Part shown: piece after piece, positions 21,327-40,803 of the stretch
Position numbering within the stretch: the stretch's first letter is position 1
How the letters are laid out: every line of letters starts with the position of its first letter
Source: an uncultured Chthonomonas sp.
GTDB lineage: Bacteria > Armatimonadota > Chthonomonadetes > Chthonomonadales > CAJBBX01
NCBI GenBank assembly: GCA_903885605.1
Contig: CAISJD010000012.1
Coordinates: 1-43,660 of the forward strand
DNA length: 43,660 nucleotides
Direction: 5' to 3'
Notes under the pieces: model-generated
Databases searched by the model: none
What the model was told of the DNA's origin: nothing
The model's input: only the letters and a program-made list of their open reading frames with translations
Program-made: the position numbers and the translations under genes

Positions 21327-21368
21327 GGCGTCCGCCCGGCCCGCGCCGCACTGCCATTGCAGCCCTCC

Positions 21369-23600
21369 TCAGGGCACGATGCCCACGGTCGTCTGGCCTG
21401 AGCCGGCCGCCAGCGACGCTCCGCCGGCGTAGGATGCCCGAGCGGTGTGCGAGCCCACAGTGAGGCCGCCGGTGGCCGCATAGGTCAACGTCGCGACGCC
21501 CGATGCATCGGTGACGGCGCTGCCCAGGCCGGAGCCGTCCAGGCTGAAGGTGATATTGAGGCCCGGCTGCCACGCGTAGTCAGGCAGGCTCCGGACGAAG
21601 GCCTTCAGCGCCATGGGCTGGCCCCTCTTCGTGGTCCGTCCGTAGAGCCAGACGTAGGTCGGCGCGACGGAGAGGGCGGCGGTCGCGCTGCCTGCGGAAG
21701 CCCGGAACCCCGCGTCGCCCGGCCACTCCACGCGGATCGGGTAGCTGCCCGCTGCCCAGCCGCCCGGCGCGGTCCAGACCACCTGGGCGCGCGGCGCGCC
21801 GAGGCTCGGGTCCAGCGTGGCCCCGGTCCCCACGATGGTGCCGTTCACCTTGAACGTGAGGGTCTTGCCGCCGATGCCGGTGCTGTCCATCTTGTAGAGG
21901 TAGCCCTTCAGGTAGATCGCCGTGCGGAGGGCGCCGCTCCGGTCGGGCACGTAGAGCTTCGTGTCCACGGTCTGTGCGGTCAGCACGGCCGAGCCGGAGG
22001 CCGCGTCGTACCACTCGTCCCCGGCGAACGCGGCGCCGATCGTCCGCGAGGCCGCGCCGGCCGGGATGGTGTAGTTCCACACTGCCGCGCCTGACGCATC
22101 CGTAGCGGACGAGCCGACCGCCGAGCCGTCGATGCGGAACGCGACGCCCTTTCCCGGCAGGTACGCCCGGTCGGACAGCCGCCAGAGGAACGCCTTCAGC
22201 GCCACGGAGGTGGTGATGATGCCGGTCCGCGCCGGTACGCCGATGCCCACGCCGGCCTTTGCGAGCGGCTCGTGGGAGATCCAGGCCACCCGGACGCGGT
22301 CGCCGGAAGCGCCCTCAACCACCGGGTCGAACCGCAGGCAGCTCACGAAGCCCGTGTAGGCGGCGCAAGCGGCCATGTCCAGCTCATACGTGTGGTACTG
22401 GCCGTCATTGGTGACACTGAACCGCACGCTCTGCGCCTCGCTGAAGGGCTTCGAGCCGTTCTCCAGTTCGAAGAAGAGCTGCCCGGTCAGCCTGCCCGGA
22501 GGCGGGTTGCTCAGGTTGGCCGCCATGCGGATGTAGAGCTTCGGCACGTCGGCGGCCCTGAACCCGCAGAAAGGCCCGATCAGCATGGGGTCCAGCCGGC
22601 CCACGTCGAGGTCCAGGCAGCCGTCGATGGGCCAGCCCGTGTCCGTCGCGTTGTTGTAGGTCCAGTGTGCGCGGTCGCTGCGGAAGGCGTAGCTGGGGCG
22701 CGGGTCGAACCGGTTGGCGTAGACGTAGGACCGGATGTTCGGCAGCGTATCCAGGATCAGGTCGTAGCTGAACTCGTAGGCGATGTTCCAGTCCAGTATC
22801 TCGGCGTGGTTCGGCGCCATGTAGCTCGTGGGGCCGTCCTTGGGGCCCGCCAGGACCGTGCTCGCGTCGACCTGTGGGAAGAAGCCGCCGCTGGTCTGGC
22901 CGCATCCCGGCGCGTAGACGCCCAGCCCCCAGCCGGCGTCATTCACCTGGGCGGCCCAGCCCTCGGTGCTGCGCCATGAGGACCACATGAAGACGTTGGC
23001 CATCTCGGTTGCAGCCTCCCCGCCGAAGGGGTTCGTGCCCTTGTAGGTCCAGAGGTGGTGCAGCGGGCCGTTCGTGTAGACGGCGGGCAGCTCCTGGAAG
23101 TAGGCGCCGTAGGACGTGTGGTCGGTGCGGGCATTGTTCAGGCGGTTGCGGACATGCACCACCTTGCCCTCCAGCGTGACCCAGTTCTCAAACGTGCAGT
23201 CGCCGGGCGTGCCCGCCGGGTTGCTTCCTCCCCACTGCATGGGAACGATCTTGCTGTACATCGTGGTCCCGTCGGACGTGAAGGCGAGCACCTGCGAGTG
23301 GTTGCCCCACTGGTCGCCCACGGAGATCGGGTTCCAGGGCCACGCCTGGCCTGCCCAGTTCCCGAAGTCGTTGGGACCCGAGTAGTAGGACTGCTGGATT
23401 TCGCGCCCGGCGTCGGCGCTGTTGACGACGTTGTCCGTCGTGCCGGAGCGCGAGAGGTAGGTGATAGCCGCTCCCAGCGCCAGGTCGATGCCGACCCGCA
23501 CCTGCCCGTTGTCCAGGTAGCGCATCGTGCCCTGCGCCGTCGCGGGGCGGGCAAGCGCCACCGCCAGAACCGCCAGAACCACGCCCACAACCCGCAGCAT
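21369..23600 (-). CDS. Secreted protein with a large N-terminal beta domain and three Ig-like repeats
   Basis: A 743-residue exported protein. The start is ATG 23600, with GGGAGGGG just upstream, followed by a signal peptide LRVVGVVLAVLAVALARPATAQ; the frame opens earlier at 23657. Residues about 25-440 form a domain I cannot name: it begins MRYLDNGQVRVGIDLALG, is rich in Trp and Gly, and ends in a beta-sandwich-like stretch that could bind sugar. Three Ig-like units follow, each with the pattern ALKxFLxxL, GKxLTFxxDGxxxGS, TDASGxA and AxFAGDxxY. The same unit recurs in the next gene. Probably a surface-attached or matrix protein; no catalytic motif is evident. Confidence 0.8.
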   Translation of the reverse strand: MLRVVGVVLAVLAVALARPATAQGTMRYLDNGQVRVGIDLALGAAITYLSRSGTTDNVVNSADAGREIQQSYYSGPNDFGNWAGQAWPWNPISVGDQWGNHSQVLAFTSDGTTMYSKIVPMQWGGSNPAGTPGDCTFENWVTLEGKVVHVRNRLNNARTDHTSYGAYFQELPAVYTNGPLHHLWTYKGTNPFGGEAATEMANVFMWSSWRSTEGWAAQVNDAGWGLGVYAPGCGQTSGGFFPQVDASTVLAGPKDGPTSYMAPNHAEILDWNIAYEFSYDLILDTLPNIRSYVYANRFDPRPSYAFRSDRAHWTYNNATDTGWPIDGCLDLDVGRLDPMLIGPFCGFRAADVPKLYIRMAANLSNPPPGRLTGQLFFELENGSKPFSEAQSVRFSVTNDGQYHTYELDMAACAAYTGFVSCLRFDPVVEGASGDRVRVAWISHEPLAKAGVGIGVPARTGIITTSVALKAFLWRLSDRAYLPGKGVAFRIDGSAVGSSATDASGAAVWNYTIPAGAASRTIGAAFAGDEWYDAASGSAVLTAQTVDTKLYVPDRSGALRTAIYLKGYLYKMDSTGIGGKTLTFKVNGTIVGTGATLDPSLGAPRAQVVWTAPGGWAAGSYPIRVEWPGDAGFRASAGSATAALSVAPTYVWLYGRTTKRGQPMALKAFVRSLPDYAWQPGLNITFSLDGSGLGSAVTDASGVATLTYAATGGLTVGSHTARASYAGGASLAAGSGQTTVGIVP

Positions 23601-23691
23601 AGCACCCCTCCCGGCCACCGCCAGTAACGTTCCAGCCACACAGTGACGGTACCACACATGCGGGGCGGGAAGGAGCGGGGTCGGTGACGCC

Positions 23692-25551
23692 CTACGGCAC
23701 CACGTTGAAGGTCGTGTTCACCGATACCGCCTGGTACCACGCATCCCCGGCGAACGCGGCAGTGGCCGTGTGTGCGCCGGACGGCTCGTCGGCTGGGATG
23801 CTCCACACGGCCGCCGCCCAGCCGTCGGCGCCCACGGTGGCCGTTCCGATCTCCGTTCCTCCGACGCTGAACACGATGCCCTTGCCGGGTTGGATCACGT
23901 AGTCCGGCAGGCTCCGCACGTAGGCCTTGAGTGCGTGGCTGGTACCCGCCTTGCCTGTGCGGACGTAGGGCCAGAGGTAGAGATCGCCGTGGGTGACCGT
24001 CAGCTTGCCGGTGTTCGCCGACGCCAGGTAGCCCGCATCGCCGGCGAACTCGCCCCGAATGACGCGCGCGCCGGCTCCGGCGCCTTCCGGGACCGTGTAG
24101 CCGACCTGCACGCAGCCGGATGTGTTGGTGTTTCCTGAGACGAGGACGGCGCCGTCCAGCTTCAGCGTCATCGGCTTGCCGGTCAGGACTGAGTTGCCGG
24201 CGGTGAACAGATAGGCCTTCAACACGGTGTAGGCCTTGACCTTTGCAGAGCGGTCGACCACGTAGACCTTGGTCGCCACGGTCTCTGCCGTGAGGGTGGA
24301 GGTGACAGGCTGCGCGGCCGCGTAGCCGGAGTCGCCCTCGAACTCCACCTTGATGGTCCGGGTGCTCGGGCCGGGATCGATGACCCAGTTCAGCGCCGCC
24401 ATGCCGCCGCCATCCGTGAGGGCGTCACCCAGCCAGACGCCATTGACTGAGAACCTCAGCGCTCGTCCCCCAAGCCATGCGAGGTCCGGTAGGCGCCGCA
24501 GGTAACCCTTCAGCGCCACGCCGGTGCCGATGACGCCGGCGCGGTTCGGCGCGTAGAGCGAGGTGCCGGGCCGGGTGTAGGTGATGCCGAAAGCGCAGGA
24601 GTAACCCTTGCCCAGCCGGGTCAGGCCGTCCAAGCCGGGAGTTCTACCTGGTGTCAGGCGCCCTATGTTCGTGCCGTCGCCGAGCTGCCCATACGTGCTG
24701 TCGCCCCAACCCCAAGCTGTACCGTCCGATTGTATGGCCAGGCATGACACCCAAGGCATGGTGAACTGGCCAAGACCCGCCACACCCGACACCAGAACCG
24801 GCGAGTTGCGCTGCACTTGCGTGCCGTCACCAAGCTCGCCGAATCCGTTGTCGCCCCAGGTCCAGAGCGACCCATCGGCACGGATGGCTCCGCTGTAGTA
24901 GCAGCCGGCAGCGATGCTCCTCACGTCCGAGATGCCCAGTACCTGCACGGGGGCGAGGCGCGTCGTGGTGGTCCCGTCGCCGAGTGTGCCATAGGTGTTG
25001 TATCCCCACGACCAGACTGTGCCGTCCAGCTTCAGCGCCATGCTGCTCAGCTCGTGACATGCGACGGCAACCACGCCTCGCAGGCCGGGAACCTCCTGCG
25101 GGCGTCGGAGATCGCCATACTCCGTTCCGAGGCCCAACTGGCCGTAGTAGTTCCAGCCCCACACCCAGACGGATCCGTCGGCCCGCCGGGCCATGGTGTG
25201 CCACATGCCTGCGGAAATGGCTGTCACCCCGCCGTCAAGGAGCGCTCGGACCGGCACGGCGCTGGTGTCTGTGGTGCCATCTCCGATCTCACCATAGATG
25301 TTGGCGCCCCAGCCCCAGACCGTGCCGTCCGCCCTCAGCGCCATCGTATGGAAGCCGTAGCAGGCAACTGCAACTACATTCGACAGCCCGACAACCTGGA
25401 CGGGGGTAAGGCGGTTAGTCCGCGTTCCATCGCCAAGCTGACCGTACCGATTCTCACCCCAAGCCCAGACCGTCCCATCGGACCGCAGCGCCACGCTGTG
25501 ATAGTAGCCTCCAGCGGCCTCGATGACGTCCGTGAGTCCGGCGACCTGCAC
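23692..25551 (-). CDS. RCC1-repeat plus Ig-like protein, main part after an in-frame amber codon
   Basis: This frame runs 619 residues from a GTG at 25551, but that GTG lies in the middle of an RCC1 repeat and has no ribosome-binding site. The true start is almost surely ATG 25707, with TAG at 25558-25560 (codon 50) in between. Residues 1-335 are about six RCC1 propeller repeats (HSVALRSDGTVWAWGENRYG, then QLGDGT and RLTPVQV, recurring every ~53 residues). Three Ig-like units follow, homologous to those of the neighbouring gene, ending VNTTFNVVP. RCC1 propellers in bacteria are secreted interaction or surface domains. As it stands the main part lacks a signal peptide and would not be exported. 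Either pseudogene, suppressed stop or sequencing error. Confidence 0.78.
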   Translation of the reverse strand: MQVAGLTDVIEAAGGYYHSVALRSDGTVWAWGENRYGQLGDGTRTNRLTPVQVVGLSNVVAVACYGFHTMALRADGTVWGWGANIYGEIGDGTTDTSAVPVRALLDGGVTAISAGMWHTMARRADGSVWVWGWNYYGQLGLGTEYGDLRRPQEVPGLRGVVAVACHELSSMALKLDGTVWSWGYNTYGTLGDGTTTTRLAPVQVLGISDVRSIAAGCYYSGAIRADGSLWTWGDNGFGELGDGTQVQRNSPVLVSGVAGLGQFTMPWVSCLAIQSDGTAWGWGDSTYGQLGDGTNIGRLTPGRTPGLDGLTRLGKGYSCAFGITYTRPGTSLYAPNRAGVIGTGVALKGYLRRLPDLAWLGGRALRFSVNGVWLGDALTDGGGMAALNWVIDPGPSTRTIKVEFEGDSGYAAAQPVTSTLTAETVATKVYVVDRSAKVKAYTVLKAYLFTAGNSVLTGKPMTLKLDGAVLVSGNTNTSGCVQVGYTVPEGAGAGARVIRGEFAGDAGYLASANTGKLTVTHGDLYLWPYVRTGKAGTSHALKAYVRSLPDYVIQPGKGIVFSVGGTEIGTATVGADGWAAAVWSIPADEPSGAHTATAAFAGDAWYQAVSVNTTFNVVP

Positions 25552-25557
25552 CGGCGA

Positions 25558-25707
25558 CTACCGATCGGTCATCGTTCCGTCGCCGAGCTGCCCCTGCGTG
25601 TTGCGGCCCCACGCCAGAAGTGGGCTGTCTGCCCGGGCACCCGTCGCACCGGTCGCCAGAGCAAGTGCCGCGACCACAAGGACGTGCGCCACCCAGCCTC
25701 TGTTCAT
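25558..25707 (-). pseudogene. Signal peptide and first half-repeat of the RCC1-Ig gene, ended by TAG
   Basis: The ATG at 25707 has GGAGG upstream and opens a 49-residue stretch: signal peptide MNRGWVAHVLVVAALALATG and an AxA cleavage site, then SPLLAWGRNTQGQLGDGTMTDR, the first half of an RCC1 repeat. The next codon is TAG (25558-25560). The frame then continues without a shift as SPVQVAGLTDVI, exactly completing the repeat, and runs 619 more residues from 25551. In sister repeats the stop position holds Leu, Ala, Arg or Asn. It is the 5' part of one gene spanning 23692-25707. Confidence 0.82.
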
Positions 25708-25723
25708 CACGGCTGCCTCCTTC

Positions 25724-25745
25724 GGCACACGCCCTGGCGCGTGCC
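25724..25745 (-). other. Hairpin in the leader of the RCC1-Ig gene
   Basis: GGCACACGC and GCGCGTGCC form a 9-bp stem with one G-T pair and a 4-base loop. On the minus strand it lies between the orphan Ig stop and the RCC1 gene's ribosome-binding site. It may terminate transcription from the upstream minus-strand gene, though no T-run follows, so it could equally be an mRNA leader structure. Confidence 0.4.
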
Positions 25746-25757
25746 GCGCAAGCAGTG

Positions 25758-25907
25758 CTACGGAACCACGTTGAACGCCGCATTGACCGATGCGGGATCG
25801 TACCAGACATCGCCCGCGAACGCTACGGTGGCCGTGTGTGCGCCGGACGGCTCGTCGGTCGGGACCTCCCACGTTAGCCCGGCCCAGCCGTCCGCGCCCG
25901 GCGCCTC
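25758..25907 (-). pseudogene. Orphan C-terminal fragment of an Ig-like repeat
   Basis: Fifty minus-strand codons, including the stop, with no start of their own, read GADGWAGLTWEVPTDEPSG, then AHTATVAFAGDVWYD and VNAAFNVVP followed by TAG. This matches the end of the RCC1-Ig protein (GADGWAAAVWSIPADEPSG, AHTATAAFAGDAWYQ, VNTTFNVVP) closely. It begins one base after the stop codon of the gene at 25909-27087, in a different frame, and has no ribosome-binding site. It is the tail of a lost paralogue, or a duplicated 3' end of the RCC1-Ig gene. Confidence 0.85.
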
Positions 25908-27266: not shown

Positions 27267-28670
27267 CTACTCGCGGGCCAACTCAGGGTACCGGTGAATG
27301 ACGGCCTCGCGGTCGCGGGGCGGAAGCTCGGATAGCCGTACCGGCCTGTCCTGCGGGCGGGTCTGCTTCTGGTTGATCGCGCCCATGAGGCTCCAGCGGC
27401 GCGTGGCGTCCTGTGGCTCACGGGCCTGCAGGTCGTAGCGCGTGTAGTCGATGACGTGGGCCGGGCCACCGGCCTGCCAGTCGCGGAGCAGGGCCAGCCG
27501 GAACGCTTTGTTCATGAACCAGCGAATCTCCATGTTCGCGTCCGATCCGCCGATCCCGCTGCCGCGCTGCCGGAACCGGTAGTCGATGCCGTCGTTGTTC
27601 CTGAACTGGCCGCGCCATGCCAGCCCGAACTCGCCCTGCGTGACGCATCGCGCTCCGGACCACCGGCGGCGGATCTCCGACAGCCAGTGGGTCAGCGCGT
27701 CGAGGCGGCCGAAGAGCGGGACGAGCGACGCCTCCCAGCAGTTCGTAACCCACCCGAAGCGGTTCAGGTCGAAGCCGTCGTCGAAGTGCGCGGCCGTGGT
27801 CGCCAGCATCTGCCTGACCCCGACCTCCGGGCCGTAGGCGCCCACCGTCTCGATGGGGCCGACGCCCATGCGGCTGTTGAAGCCGTCGCGGAACCCCTCC
27901 CGCCGGGCCGCCAGGAAGTCGCACGTCCAGCCGTCCAGGTTCACGCAGTCGATAAAGTCGCCCCTGCCCTGGGCCGGTTTGCAGAAGTGCTCTGTCGAGG
28001 GGTAGTAGGGGTAGCAGATCGAGCCGTCGCCGTCCTGGTTGTCGATGGCGTACTGGCTCCAGATGTTGCCCTGGCAGACATGGACGCGCTCCTCGACGGC
28101 CAGGTGGCGCTGGTTGGCCGCGGCCAGGAAGCCTGCCACCACGCTGGACGGGCGGAACCCGCCGCCCACGATCTCCGACACCCTCTCCAGCGCCTCGTGC
28201 AGGTCGCGGTTCACCCGCTCGCGGGGGCCGTAGGCGTTGGCGAAGAAGCCGCCGGGAATGAAGGTGACGTCGTCGCCGTGGAGCGCGTGGAAGCCCGCCA
28301 CCATGTCGCGGATGGCCACGTAGTCGGGCCTCGGGTCGCTCAGGGCGCGCCAGCTGAAGGCCCAGGTCATTCGGCCGCCGGGCCAGCCCCGCTCGAAAGC
28401 GTCGCGCAGGGCCCGGACGTTCCTGGGTGTGTGTGCCGAGGCCTCGTCCACGCCTTCAGTCCGGTCGCGGGTAACCTCGATTTGGTTCACGCGGATCACC
28501 GAGTTGAAGGTCAGGTAGCGGTGGCCCAGGAAGCCGGCGGCAGTGTCTCCCATGGCGGTCCTTTCGCATGCGAGCGGCCCGGCTCCCGATGCCGCCGCGG
28601 CGGCCCCAAGCAGCAGGGCGCGGCGGGTAAGGGGAGGCAGGGGTCGTGAAGAGGCTGCGTTCATAGCCAT
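27267..28670 (-). CDS. Exported protein, DUF3863/DUF3864-like
   Basis: A 467-residue protein starting at ATG 28670 (ATG 28664 also possible; the frame opens at 28724). The leader has an RR pair before a hydrophobic stretch (LTRRALLLGAAAAASG) and a Cys in PLACERT, so it may be Tat-exported, perhaps a lipoprotein. The mature part begins GHRYLTFNSVIRVNQIEVTR, which I associate with DUF3863-type proteins from glycan loci. Later blocks include TFIPGGFFANAYGPRE, NQDGDGSICYPYYPSTEHF, and GFDLNRFGWVTNCWEA. It looks enzymatic with several conserved Trp, Asp and Glu, but no reaction is known to me. Confidence 0.75.
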   Translation of the reverse strand: MAMNAASSRPLPPLTRRALLLGAAAAASGAGPLACERTAMGDTAAGFLGHRYLTFNSVIRVNQIEVTRDRTEGVDEASAHTPRNVRALRDAFERGWPGGRMTWAFSWRALSDPRPDYVAIRDMVAGFHALHGDDVTFIPGGFFANAYGPRERVNRDLHEALERVSEIVGGGFRPSSVVAGFLAAANQRHLAVEERVHVCQGNIWSQYAIDNQDGDGSICYPYYPSTEHFCKPAQGRGDFIDCVNLDGWTCDFLAARREGFRDGFNSRMGVGPIETVGAYGPEVGVRQMLATTAAHFDDGFDLNRFGWVTNCWEASLVPLFGRLDALTHWLSEIRRRWSGARCVTQGEFGLAWRGQFRNNDGIDYRFRQRGSGIGGSDANMEIRWFMNKAFRLALLRDWQAGGPAHVIDYTRYDLQAREPQDATRRWSLMGAINQKQTRPQDRPVRLSELPPRDREAVIHRYPELARE

Positions 28671-28768
28671 ACCATGGTACCGGATCGGGTCGACGTCGAC
28701 CGACCGACCGCGTACCCAGCGCACAGCGAGGCCGAGGCGGTCGGCAACTCAATAGGTGTGGCGGCGCC

Positions 28769-28844
28769 TTGTACGTCGTCGAGACGCCCACGGAGACGGC
28801 CCCCGAGCTGCGATCGCTACGCGGCAAGCCGGTCTCTCTGATCT
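28769..28844 (+). other. Coding-like remnant of 24 codons with no clear start
   Basis: The plus-strand frame from 28769 reads LYVVETPTETAPELRSLRG, then KPVSLI and a TGA, with G or C in nearly every third position, as in real genes here. Upstream the frame soon loses this bias and has no ATG or ribosome-binding site. It may be the tail of a lost gene near the HEPN/MNT repeat, or chance. Confidence 0.3.
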
Positions 28845-28861
28845 GAGTCGCCGGATCGGCG

Positions 28862-28902
28862 CCATCCATTGACCGCCCGCCGCCGCATAACCTACACTGT
28901 TG
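28862..28902 (+). promoter_or_regulatory. Promoter-bearing 41-bp direct repeat, copy 1 (mntA-hepT promoter)
   Basis: This 41-bp block recurs at 29619-29659 with a single mismatch (40 of 41). It contains a -35 box TTGACC at 28869-28874, an 18-base spacer and a -10 box TACACT at 28893-28898. Transcription would start near 28905, about 54 bases before the mntA start. Confidence 0.8.
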
Positions 28903-28907
28903 GTGTA
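28893..28907 (+). promoter_or_regulatory. Inverted repeat over the mntA -10 box
   Basis: TACAC and GTGTA flank a 5-base centre, so the arm overlaps the -10 box. The right arm is absent from the second promoter copy at 29650, so the site is specific to the toxin-antitoxin promoter. It could be an autoregulatory operator; the arms are short. Confidence 0.35.
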
Positions 28908-28958
28908 TCGGAGGGGGGCCAAGACGGAGGCGGCGAACCCATCGCCGGAGGATGCCTG

Positions 28959-29255
28959 ATGGACATGGACCGTGATGCAGTCATCGCTACGCTTGCGGCG
29001 CGCTTACCGTACCTGTCCGCGGCCTATGGTGTGCGCGACCTCGCGCTGTTCGGCTCGGTTGCGCGGGGCGCCGCCCGGCCCGAGAGCGACGTAGACATCC
29101 TGGTCGGCTTCGACGGACCTGCCACGTCGCGACGCTACTTCGGCGTCCAGTTTGACCTCGAAGACCACCTGGGCCGTCCCGTCGACCTGGTCACGAGCAA
29201 GGCGCTTCGGCCCGAGTTCAGGCACGGCGTCGAACGAGAGATGATCCGTGTCTGA
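28959..29255 (+). CDS. mntA: MNT-domain nucleotidyltransferase antitoxin (MntA-type)
   Basis: A 98-residue minimal nucleotidyltransferase. The polymerase-beta signature GSX10DXD is complete: Gly32-Ser33 in LALFGSVARG and Asp44/Asp46 in ESDVDILVG. A third acidic position comes later in GRPVDLVTSKAL. MntA proteins adenylylate a tyrosine in the RX4HXY site of HepT and so block it. GGAGGA at 28947-28952 lies 6 bases before ATG 28959, which fixes the start although the frame opens at 28869. It overlaps hepT by 8 bases. Antitoxin-first order is standard for HEPN/MNT pairs. Confidence 0.9.
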   Translation: MDMDRDAVIATLAARLPYLSAAYGVRDLALFGSVARGAARPESDVDILVGFDGPATSRRYFGVQFDLEDHLGRPVDLVTSKALRPEFRHGVEREMIRV

Positions 29256-29610
29256 CCAGTCTGAGCGGGATTGGCGCCTCTACCTGAAGGACATGGTCCG
29301 GTTTGGCGACAAGGTCATGCAATACGCGCAGGGAATTGATCAGCGTTCCTTTGCCGTGAATGATATCGTGTATGATGCCATCCTGCGGAACCTTGAGCTG
29401 ATCGGTGAGGCCGCATCGCACGTGCCTCCGGCGGCCCGCGAACTACATCCAGCGGTTGCCTGGCGTCAGATCGTCGCCACGCGCAACAGGCTGATACATG
29501 GCTACCTCGGCCTGGACGATGAGTTGCTGTGGAGCATCGTGCAGGATGACATCCCGCCCATGCTCACGCAGTTGCGGGCCGCACTCGAAGAGACCGATCC
29601 GATCTCGTAG
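29248..29610 (+). CDS. hepT: HEPN-domain RNase toxin (HepT, DUF86)
   Basis: A 120-residue all-helical HEPN protein. The ribonuclease motif RX4HXY is intact: Arg79, His84, Tyr86 in TRNRLIHGY; Tyr86 is the residue AMPylated by MntA in studied pairs. Other family marks are NDIVYDAILRNLELIGEAASHV and LLWSIVQDDIPPML. HepT cleaves RNA, reported for tRNA and mRNA, when unmodified. It starts with GTG at 29248 inside the last codons of mntA, so the two are translationally coupled. The second 41-bp repeat begins 9 bases after its stop. Confidence 0.92.
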   Translation: MSDQSERDWRLYLKDMVRFGDKVMQYAQGIDQRSFAVNDIVYDAILRNLELIGEAASHVPPAARELHPAVAWRQIVATRNRLIHGYLGLDDELLWSIVQDDIPPMLTQLRAALEETDPIS

Positions 29611-29618
29611 ACCGCACC

Positions 29619-29659
29619 CCATCCATTGACCGCCCGCCGCCGCATCACCTACACTGTTG
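29619..29659 (+). promoter_or_regulatory. Promoter-bearing 41-bp direct repeat, copy 2 (promoter of the exported redox pair)
   Basis: Same block as 28862-28902 with one base changed. TTGACC at 29626-29631 and TACACT at 29650-29655 keep the 18-base spacing. Transcription would start near 29662, about 30 bases before the ATG at 29691. It separates hepT from the Tat-exported gene, so the toxin-antitoxin unit and its neighbour have near-identical core promoters. Confidence 0.8.
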
Positions 29660-29690
29660 CCGGGCCGCGATGGCCGCAAGGGGGATACCT

Positions 29691-30647
29691 ATGGGTTCCG
29701 AGACGATGCACGGTGGCGATGGGCGCATGGGCGAGGCCAGCCGCCGCGAGTTCCTGGCCGGGGCCGTGGCCGCGGGCGTGACGCTGGCTTGCGGCGAGGC
29801 AGCCGTCGGGCAGGCCGCCCAGGTTGCGCCGCTGCCCCACGTGACCATCGCCGGGGTGACCATCCCGCGCATGATCGTCGGATGCAACCCCATCGGCGGC
29901 TGGTCGCACATGTCCCGCAACATGACGCTGGCCATGACCGACTACTTCACGCAGGAGCGCACCGTCAGCTTCCTCTCCGGCTGCGAGAAGCAGGGGCTCG
30001 ACGTCTGGATCGGCTACTGGGACGACAAGCCGCGCAAGGCCCTCAAGCAGCTCTGGGCGCAGGGCTCGAAGATACGCCCCTACTTCCTCGGCCAGCTCGA
30101 GGAGGGCGGGAAGATCTCCAAGGACCTCCTGGAGTACAAGCCCATCTGGTACGTCCACCACGGCAACGTCACGGACACGCTCTTCCGCGCGGGCAAGCAG
30201 GAGCAGGTGCACGACTTTGTGAAGCGCGTCCATGACACGCTGGGCATCCCCGCGGGCATCTCGGCGCACAACCCCGACTGCATCAAGTACGCCGAGGACC
30301 ATGGCTGGGAGGCCGACCTCTACCAGTGCTGCCTCTACTACGTCACCCGCCCGGCCGAGGAGATACGCGCCAAGCTCGGCTCCGCGCCGCTGGGCGAGCC
30401 TTTCCTGGACGGCGACCGCGACCGGATGCTCGACGTGATCCGCCAGGTGAAGAAGCCCTGCCTCGCCTTCAAGATTCTCGGCGCCGGGCGGCTCTGCGAC
30501 TCGGATTACTCGGTGGAGGAGGCGTTCCAGTACGCCCTCTCGCGCATCAAGAAGAGCGACGCCATCATCGTCGGCATGTGGCCGAAGTACAAGGACGAGG
30601 TGGGTCAGAACATCGCCCTGCTCCGCAAGTACGGGCGCACGGCGTGA
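29691..30647 (+). CDS. Tat-exported aldo/keto-reductase-like protein
   Basis: A 318-residue protein. The N-terminus carries a twin-arginine signal, ASRREFLAGAVAAGVTLACG, near residues 16-35. The mature chain has VTIAGVTIPRMIVGCNPIGGW, like the opening strand of aldo/keto-reductase-fold proteins, GIPAGISAHNPDCIKYAEDHGW, and a late FKILGAGRLCDSD, which again fits that barrel. The classical catalytic tetrad is not obvious, so the reaction is open. ATG 29691 is chosen over 29670 because AGGGGG lies 6 bases upstream. Its TGA stop overlaps the GTG start of the next cytochrome gene by 4 bases, so the two products are made together and may exchange electrons outside the cytoplasm (inference). Confidence 0.85.
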   Translation: MGSETMHGGDGRMGEASRREFLAGAVAAGVTLACGEAAVGQAAQVAPLPHVTIAGVTIPRMIVGCNPIGGWSHMSRNMTLAMTDYFTQERTVSFLSGCEKQGLDVWIGYWDDKPRKALKQLWAQGSKIRPYFLGQLEEGGKISKDLLEYKPIWYVHHGNVTDTLFRAGKQEQVHDFVKRVHDTLGIPAGISAHNPDCIKYAEDHGWEADLYQCCLYYVTRPAEEIRAKLGSAPLGEPFLDGDRDRMLDVIRQVKKPCLAFKILGAGRLCDSDYSVEEAFQYALSRIKKSDAIIVGMWPKYKDEVGQNIALLRKYGRTA

Positions 30648-31321
30648 GGCGCGGGACGCTCCCGGCCCTGGGCTTCGGCTTGTCGGCGCTGCTGGTGGCG
30701 GCGACCCTCGCCGCCCCGCCCGCCCCGCCCGCGCAGCTGCTCTACCCGCTGGCCGGGACCGTGCGCAAGCCCGGGGCCGTCCGCGTGATGCTGGCCACTC
30801 CCAGGGGCGCGCCCATGCCCGCTGCCGTCTGGGACGGCAAGCCGCTGCGCCTGAGCCGCATGGCCTTCGATCCCGGGTGGACCGCGCCCGCGCCGCTCCA
30901 GCGGACCTCCGACCTGCTGGGCGACCGGACCACAATGGAGCGTTGGCTGTCCGCACCCGCCGCGACGGTGGGCAAGCATACGCTGAAGGCCGGCGGCAGG
31001 AGCGTCGTGCTGACCGTGAACGCCGCCGGCGCCGCACGGGGCCTCGCCCAGGCCGCGGCGCATGGGAAGCCCGCCTCGGCCGCCTGCTCCGGGTGCCATG
31101 CCGTCGCGAACGGTAGCCTGGGCGACGCCGCCACGCCCGGCGCCTGTGCCGCCTGCCACAATGACGCGGCGGTGCAGACCATCCACAAGCACGTCACCGA
31201 GCCGCTTCGTCGTTGCGCCATGTGCCATGACCCACACGAGGCCGTCCGGCCCAAGCTGCTCTGCGCCCCGAAGGAGAAGCTCTGCAGCCGTTGTCACGCC
31301 CTGGGTCACTCCAAGGGCTGA
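30644..31321 (+). CDS. Secreted tetrahaem cytochrome c (doubled CXXCH type)
   Basis: A 225-residue exported protein starting at a GTG that overlaps the previous stop (GTGA). A signal peptide (LPALGFGLSALLVAATLAAP) covers about residues 1-25. An N-terminal domain of about 110 residues, rich in beta and without haem sites, precedes four CXXCH motifs: CSGCH 148-152, CAACH 168-172, CAMCH 191-195 and CSRCH 214-218. The last two form a doubled-CXXCH pair with HDPHEA between. The haem cofactors would pass electrons in the periplasm or at the surface. Upstream in the same frame the sequence is a shadow of the previous gene. Coupling with the Tat protein suggests a redox pair. Confidence 0.88.
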   Translation: MRRGTLPALGFGLSALLVAATLAAPPAPPAQLLYPLAGTVRKPGAVRVMLATPRGAPMPAAVWDGKPLRLSRMAFDPGWTAPAPLQRTSDLLGDRTTMERWLSAPAATVGKHTLKAGGRSVVLTVNAAGAARGLAQAAAHGKPASAACSGCHAVANGSLGDAATPGACAACHNDAAVQTIHKHVTEPLRRCAMCHDPHEAVRPKLLCAPKEKLCSRCHALGHSKG

Positions 31322-40722: not shown

Positions 40723-40803
40723 AGCAACCCTCCTCCACTGCGCTTCGCGCCCTTTCGCCGTCCTACCGGCGTGCCGCGCCGGCGGTCCTGTGACCCCTGC
40801 CCC

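Follow-up and report, generated by a model that had tools for sequence, protein, structure and literature searches.

Insertion with long target duplication, in which a gene unit comes to lie between two direct copies of the DNA that it entered, is known for restriction-modification genes (PMC3031569, PMC3874152, PMC1643837; Nobusato et al. 2000, Gene 259:99, as cited in PMC3031569), with duplications described as being 'in the order of 100 bp' (PMC3874152). For toxin-antitoxin pairs, repeated acquisition has been described within Tn3-family transposons, where one of the acquired pairs is of the HEPN/MNT kind and the molecular route was called unclear by the authors (PMC7157771). Pairs of HEPN/MNT class I are recognized by two signatures, GSx10DxD in the MNT antitoxin and Rx4HxY in the HEPN toxin (PMC7641770). 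In the portions of the literature available to us, no direct precedent that combines target duplication with a toxin-antitoxin module was found beyond the restriction-modification work, and the accessible text on HEPN, MNT, direct repeats, and toxin-antitoxin systems yielded no report of such insertions.

Here, we describe an mntA-hepT module within a 43,660-nt stretch of chromosomal DNA from an uncultured Chthonomonas sp. (the window, meaning the whole stretch that was analyzed). The locus resembles the restriction-modification cases in that a small selfish unit lies between long, variable, target-derived direct repeats that occur as a single copy at the empty site. In contrast, the unit that lies between the repeats is a type VII toxin-antitoxin pair and the duplicated sequence a candidate core promoter, and the repeat lengths of 28–55 bp are below the quoted order of 100 bp. 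With HepT/MntA of Shewanella oneidensis (SO_3166/SO_3165, PMC7641770), the window pair shares the families PF01909 and PF01934 and both intact motifs, but both of its proteins score below the NCBIfam equivalog cut-offs and its MntA is minimal. Like the Tn3-family pairs, modules of the type described here were acquired repeatedly and independently. However, those pairs reside inside the transposon near the resolution site, while the window pair stands alone in the chromosome with a target duplication, and, compared to TnSod9 (PMC7157771), it has no transposon context.

Results and Discussion

Two Blocks With Candidate Promoters Enclose an mntA-hepT Module

A previous sequence-only reading of this DNA had described a HEPN/MNT unit between two 41-bp blocks that differ at one base and begin 757 bp apart, each with a TTGACC/TACACT promoter. 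The follow-up analysis reproduced this architecture (Table 1). The blocks are identical at 40/41 positions with a start-to-start distance of 757 bp, and the sole mismatch (A in copy 1, C in copy 2) is found at block position 28. As a direct repeat, the pair scored 38, compared to a maximum of 18–21 in five shuffles of the 43.6-kb window. The motif TTGACC-N18-TACACT, present once per block, accounts for the only sigma-70-like sites on both strands of the region 28600–29800 (2 found vs. 0.2 expected). Copy 1 ends 56 bp before mntA, and the downstream gene likely starts 31 bp after copy 2.

Table 1. Features of the mntA-hepT locus in window coordinates.
Feature	Position	Strand	Description
Left flanking gene DUF3863/DUF3864	27267–28691	−	Syntenic in relatives
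MazE/AbrB-Fic/Doc module scars	28738–28847	+	Colinear fragments from the antitoxin gene and from both ends of doc (5′ region and 3′ end); remainder deleted
41-bp block, copy 1 (proposed duplicated target)	28862–28902	+	TTGACC 28869–28874, TACACT 28893–28898; block position 28 is A
Unique segment (proposed insert)	28903–29618	+	716 bp; missing at the orthologous site in both same-genus relatives
mntA	28959–29255	+	98-aa minimal nucleotidyltransferase antitoxin; GSx10DxD intact (GSVARGAARPESDVD)
hepT	29248–29610	+	120-aa HEPN RNase toxin; GTG start overlaps the mntA stop; Rx4HxY intact (RNRLIHGY)
41-bp block, copy 2	29619–29659	+	TTGACC 29626–29631, TACACT 29650–29655; 41/41 identical to the relatives' single copy
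Downstream gene	29691–30647	+	Twin-arginine-like leader; no family match; block copy 2 as candidate promoter
Second downstream gene	30644–31321	+	Paired CXXCH haem-type protein

The two genes between the blocks overlap by 8 nt, and their products match Pfam NTP_transf_2 (MntA, E 4e-15) and the HepT-like family PF01934 (HepT, E 2e-24). Judged by the families PF01909 and PF01934 and by the two intact catalytic motifs, MntA-HepT is a predicted class I type VII HEPN/MNT pair, in agreement with the first assignment of the unit. In a pair of this class, MntA would neutralize the toxicity of HepT by adenylylation. The search against solved structures returned 1wot for MntA, and phmmer gave no match to any PDB chain for HepT. 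The GC content of hepT is about 60–63%, compared to about 68–70% around it. According to the open reading frame list, the 716-bp insert contains no recombinase gene. A transposon with terminal inverted repeats was considered and rejected, as none were found in the four inserts examined here and in other genomes (longest exact match 5–8 bp).

Downstream, the gene most likely starts at 29691 and not at 29670, since a 1-nt indel in relatives breaks the frame after the ATG at 29670. Its product has no match in Pfam, NCBIfam, or PDB. Therefore, the initial description of the downstream genes as redox genes can be maintained for the second of them, with its CXXCH haem-type motifs, but not for the first. 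The accompanying suggestion that the downstream gene retains an intact promoter is consistent with the promoter-like copy 2 directly before it.

Relatives Carry a Single Block at the Orthologous Site

The genome of the window (G000) comprises 211 contigs, and two further species of the same genus (G001 and G002) were available within a phylum set of 291 genomes. In both relatives (contigs C39 and C97, respectively), mntA-hepT is absent and one block, identical to copy 2 at 41/41 positions, lies directly before the orthologous downstream gene. The left flank at 28818–28861 (relatives' L034:3442–3485) and the segment 29619–40735 are contiguous across this block. Since the flanks join across a single block, the difference between G000 and its relatives is a clean 757-bp step, made up of 716 bp of unique sequence and one extra block. 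This outcome was predicted by the sequence-only reading, which had proposed that loci without mntA-hepT should carry exactly one block before the downstream gene, and it fits the accompanying suggestion that the repeat may mark an insertion, with target duplication as one of two routes named there beside recombination at a promoter.

The same reading had named many unrelated copies of the block as an opposing outcome; none were encountered in the own genome or in the 291 genomes of the phylum set. With up to 3 mismatches allowed, the 5.6-Mb genome of the window contains only the two copies, and elsewhere in the phylum set the block occurs once each in G001 and G002, at the orthologous site. 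With no copy in the 288 phylum genomes outside the genus, a dispersed or generic promoter repeat was rejected. Beyond the genus, no orthologue of the downstream gene was found with a block. Plasmids were considered as a source of empty sites and dismissed, as only 11 distant plasmid matches with less than 60% identity were obtained. Unusual conservation of the block between the species was also discarded as an interpretation: the adjoining 11 kb contain 20 identical runs of at least 51 bases, which makes the conservation of the block by itself unremarkable.

Further left, an RCC1-repeat-like segment (21352–25898) precedes the locus in the window and is found in G001/G002 after the equivalent of position 40735 (L034:14636 onward). 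The sequence suggests that this shift arose beside duplicated RCC1-like genes by translocation or rearrangement.

A second toxin-antitoxin module was present at the same intergenic site. In G001/G002, the 0.7 kb that separate the DUF3863 gene from the block encode a MazE/AbrB-type antitoxin (PF04014) together with a Fic/Doc-type toxin (PF02661, E 7e−19). This module (L034:2791–3470) lies directly upstream of the block, with the toxin stop codon 15 bp before it. Since the window keeps only scars of this module while it is intact in the relatives, the MazE/AbrB-Fic/Doc unit was lost where mntA-hepT probably arrived. The possibility that this module is itself an insertion with its own repeats was rejected, because no long repeat surrounds it in the relatives. 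The site thus appears to illustrate toxin-antitoxin turnover, with one unit decayed and another settled. The sequence-only reading had noted neither this decayed module nor similar duplications in other genomes.

Similar Duplications Surround Other Modules

The nearest module within the phylum (G009; 57% amino acid identity for HepT and 66% for MntA) is found in an unrelated neighborhood, with a glycosidase-type gene on one side and an ABC permease-type gene on the other, as judged from the open reading frames. The 80 nearest module records in the genome contig database are mostly proteobacterial, with HepT identities of 51–63%. The unrelated neighborhood of the G009 module, the mostly proteobacterial close relatives, and the low GC content of hepT fit a horizontal transfer of the module.

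To quantify bracketing, a direct repeat scoring at least 18 within 600 bp of the module was required, and offset windows in the same loci served as controls. By this measure, 10 of the 80 nearest HEPN/MNT modules were bracketed vs. 11/613 offset windows (Fisher p 3e−5, which is approximate since the offset windows overlap). The repeats were 28–106 bp or more in length, and the target sequences were unrelated host promoters or gene ends.

Three of the bracketed modules were compared with their relatives. In Accumulibacter (L172), the final 106 bp of a CcmH/CycH-type gene, up to its stop codon, are repeated beyond hepT, while in relatives without the module a single 106-bp copy connects the end of this gene with the downstream DNA. 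Two other genomes have this insertion in common. Additional decayed pieces beyond hepT come from 1.4 kb of the CcmH/CycH-type gene region, which makes an original duplication of about 1.4 kb with later decay probable. In a Thiohalomonas MAG (L131), a 49/49 repeat surrounds the HEPN/MNT module, and in its relative G373 a single diverged copy precedes the downstream gene and 35 bp separate the flanks. For Quisquiliibacterium (L113), the terminal 32 bp of an RNase E/G gene are found again beyond hepT and occur once in relatives; this is the least complete of the empty sites, since the relatives do not keep the downstream synteny. The insertion after the RNase E/G gene is shared by a Quisquiliibacterium relative (G333), and in the G333 locus L266 hepT appears truncated, as in a decaying copy of the L113-type module. 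Additionally, a 54/55 repeat overlaps the end of a Mg-chelatase-type gene in L136. The repeat copies of L172 and L102 have diverged to 85–86% identity. That the targets, promoters and gene ends, are left whole by the duplication can be explained by survivorship.

Taken with the 41 bp of the window, the repeats of 32, 49, and 106 bp elsewhere show the size of tens to hundreds of bp and the variable length and sequence that characterize long target duplication. The single copy at the insert-free site, a further mark of this mode, was found in G001 and G002, in the relatives of L172, and, in diverged form, in G373.

However, direct repeats are not a hallmark of HEPN/MNT modules, and this idea was rejected: in 36 genomes from the HEPN/MNT set, 12/63 ParE modules were bracketed compared to 10/80 HEPN/MNT modules (p 0.35), and the repeats were absent from the other scored modules of the window's phylum. 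There, no scored HEPN/MNT locus other than the one in the window had a long repeat except the tandem module L041 (G185:C44), which comprises two HEPN genes and in which the second module begins with a near copy of the start of the first. By appearance, several of the ParE repeats resemble integron or tRNA attachment repeats. Since ParE modules are bracketed as often and in part by such attachment-like repeats, bracketing alone is not diagnostic of a mechanism. The sequence comparisons suggest that entry with long target duplication is possible for HEPN/MNT modules and has occurred repeatedly, but not that it is their invariable or exclusive route.

Among the ParE modules, those at L240, L247, L248, L257, and L205 of Marinomonas (G319) are bracketed by repeats of integron attC-like appearance, some of them interrelated, and possibly form a large integron array. 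Separately, a dispersed element of approximately 50–67 bp, GC-rich and REP-like in look, was observed beside three other HEPN genes of the genus (L183:1825–2234, L188:1145–1359, L191:1993–2059), with nearby copies in L183 and L188.

Proposed Route of Entry and Competing Explanations

We consider it likely that a 716-bp mntA-hepT fragment was inserted at the promoter of the downstream gene, with duplication of a 41-bp target, by insertion with long target duplication. A fragment with a weak promoter or none would have entered at this promoter, and the 41-bp target holding it would have become duplicated, with one copy on each side of the insert. With both promoters presumably working, mntA-hepT would be driven by copy 1 and the host gene would keep copy 2, so that the insertion would cost the host gene nothing. 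Since the repeat length is variable and no fixed site is apparent, the fragment may have been captured by host break repair or by template switching between offset breaks on sister strands. Capture at a broken or switching replication fork would set the duplication length as the offset of the two joined ends. Thereafter, the module may protect the unstable repeat arrangement, as cells with a deletion would be poisoned by left-over HepT.

The same structure could have been reached in the opposite direction, if the ancestor of the genus already had the module and recombination between the 41-bp repeats removed it from G001/G002 or from an ancestor of these two. The site in the relatives is the exact product of such a deletion, and as a clean loss through the repeats leaves the same picture, the empty sites do not fix the direction with three genomes and no outgroup that has the block. 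Under an ancestral module, however, the two copies would predate the split of the species, which differ by approximately 10% in the adjoining 11 kb, yet they are only 1/41 apart and copy 2 equals the block of the relatives at 41/41 positions. Promoter constraint could contribute to this and may slow the divergence of the block, which weakens the argument, but the lower GC content of the insert also points to a recent arrival. From the low copy divergence relative to that between the species and from the lower GC content, a gain in the G000 lineage is favored over a loss in the relatives, the insert would be recent foreign DNA, and the ancestral module appears unlikely to us. To homologous integration, in which a circular or linear donor with the 41-bp block beside mntA-hepT recombined with the resident block, we assign the same low probability. 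It would result in the same structure, the single A/C difference could come from the donor, and the diverged copies of L172 and L102 could have been imported rather than aged. However, a search that allowed up to 3 mismatches detected no further block locus in the own genome, nor any outside the orthologous sites in the 291 phylum genomes, and the nearest mntA-hepT relative lies in its unrelated neighborhood in G009.

Even less probable is a passive element that relied on a transposase or site-specific recombinase acting in trans, with the block as a fixed-length duplication or att core. Although integrative elements are also flanked by direct repeats of tens of bp, and some ParE modules adjoin a tRNA end or integron-like repeats by appearance, the repeats around the HEPN/MNT modules vary in length and derive from unrelated host sequences. 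Neither terminal inverted repeats in the four inserts nor a recombinase gene within the insert was found, and the block has no dispersed copies in the genome. As short-read assemblies tend to misjoin at short repeats, a collapsed or misjoined 41-bp repeat in the 211-contig genome was considered as well. A false join would hardly leave foreign DNA with a block at either end and with outer flanks that are each colinear with two relatives, and the same architecture is seen in independent genomes (L172, L131), so that we regard an artefact as highly improbable, the least of these explanations.

Conclusion

This locus holds a whole record of the proposed insertion with long target duplication, namely module-free sites, the duplicated target, a candidate promoter for the newcomer, and an intact one for the host gene. 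Considering also the three similar cases from unrelated bacteria, a recombinase-free route of entry, so far known for restriction-modification genes, becomes testable for toxin-antitoxin genes. Whether small toxin-antitoxin modules generally enter chromosomes in this element-free way and are then kept because excision through the repeats is lethal is a tentative idea, which we hold to be possible but rather doubtful. If true, the duplication would hand such modules a ready-made host promoter or restore the end of a host gene, and it would explain the isolated chromosomal toxin-antitoxin modules that have no transposon or integrase nearby.
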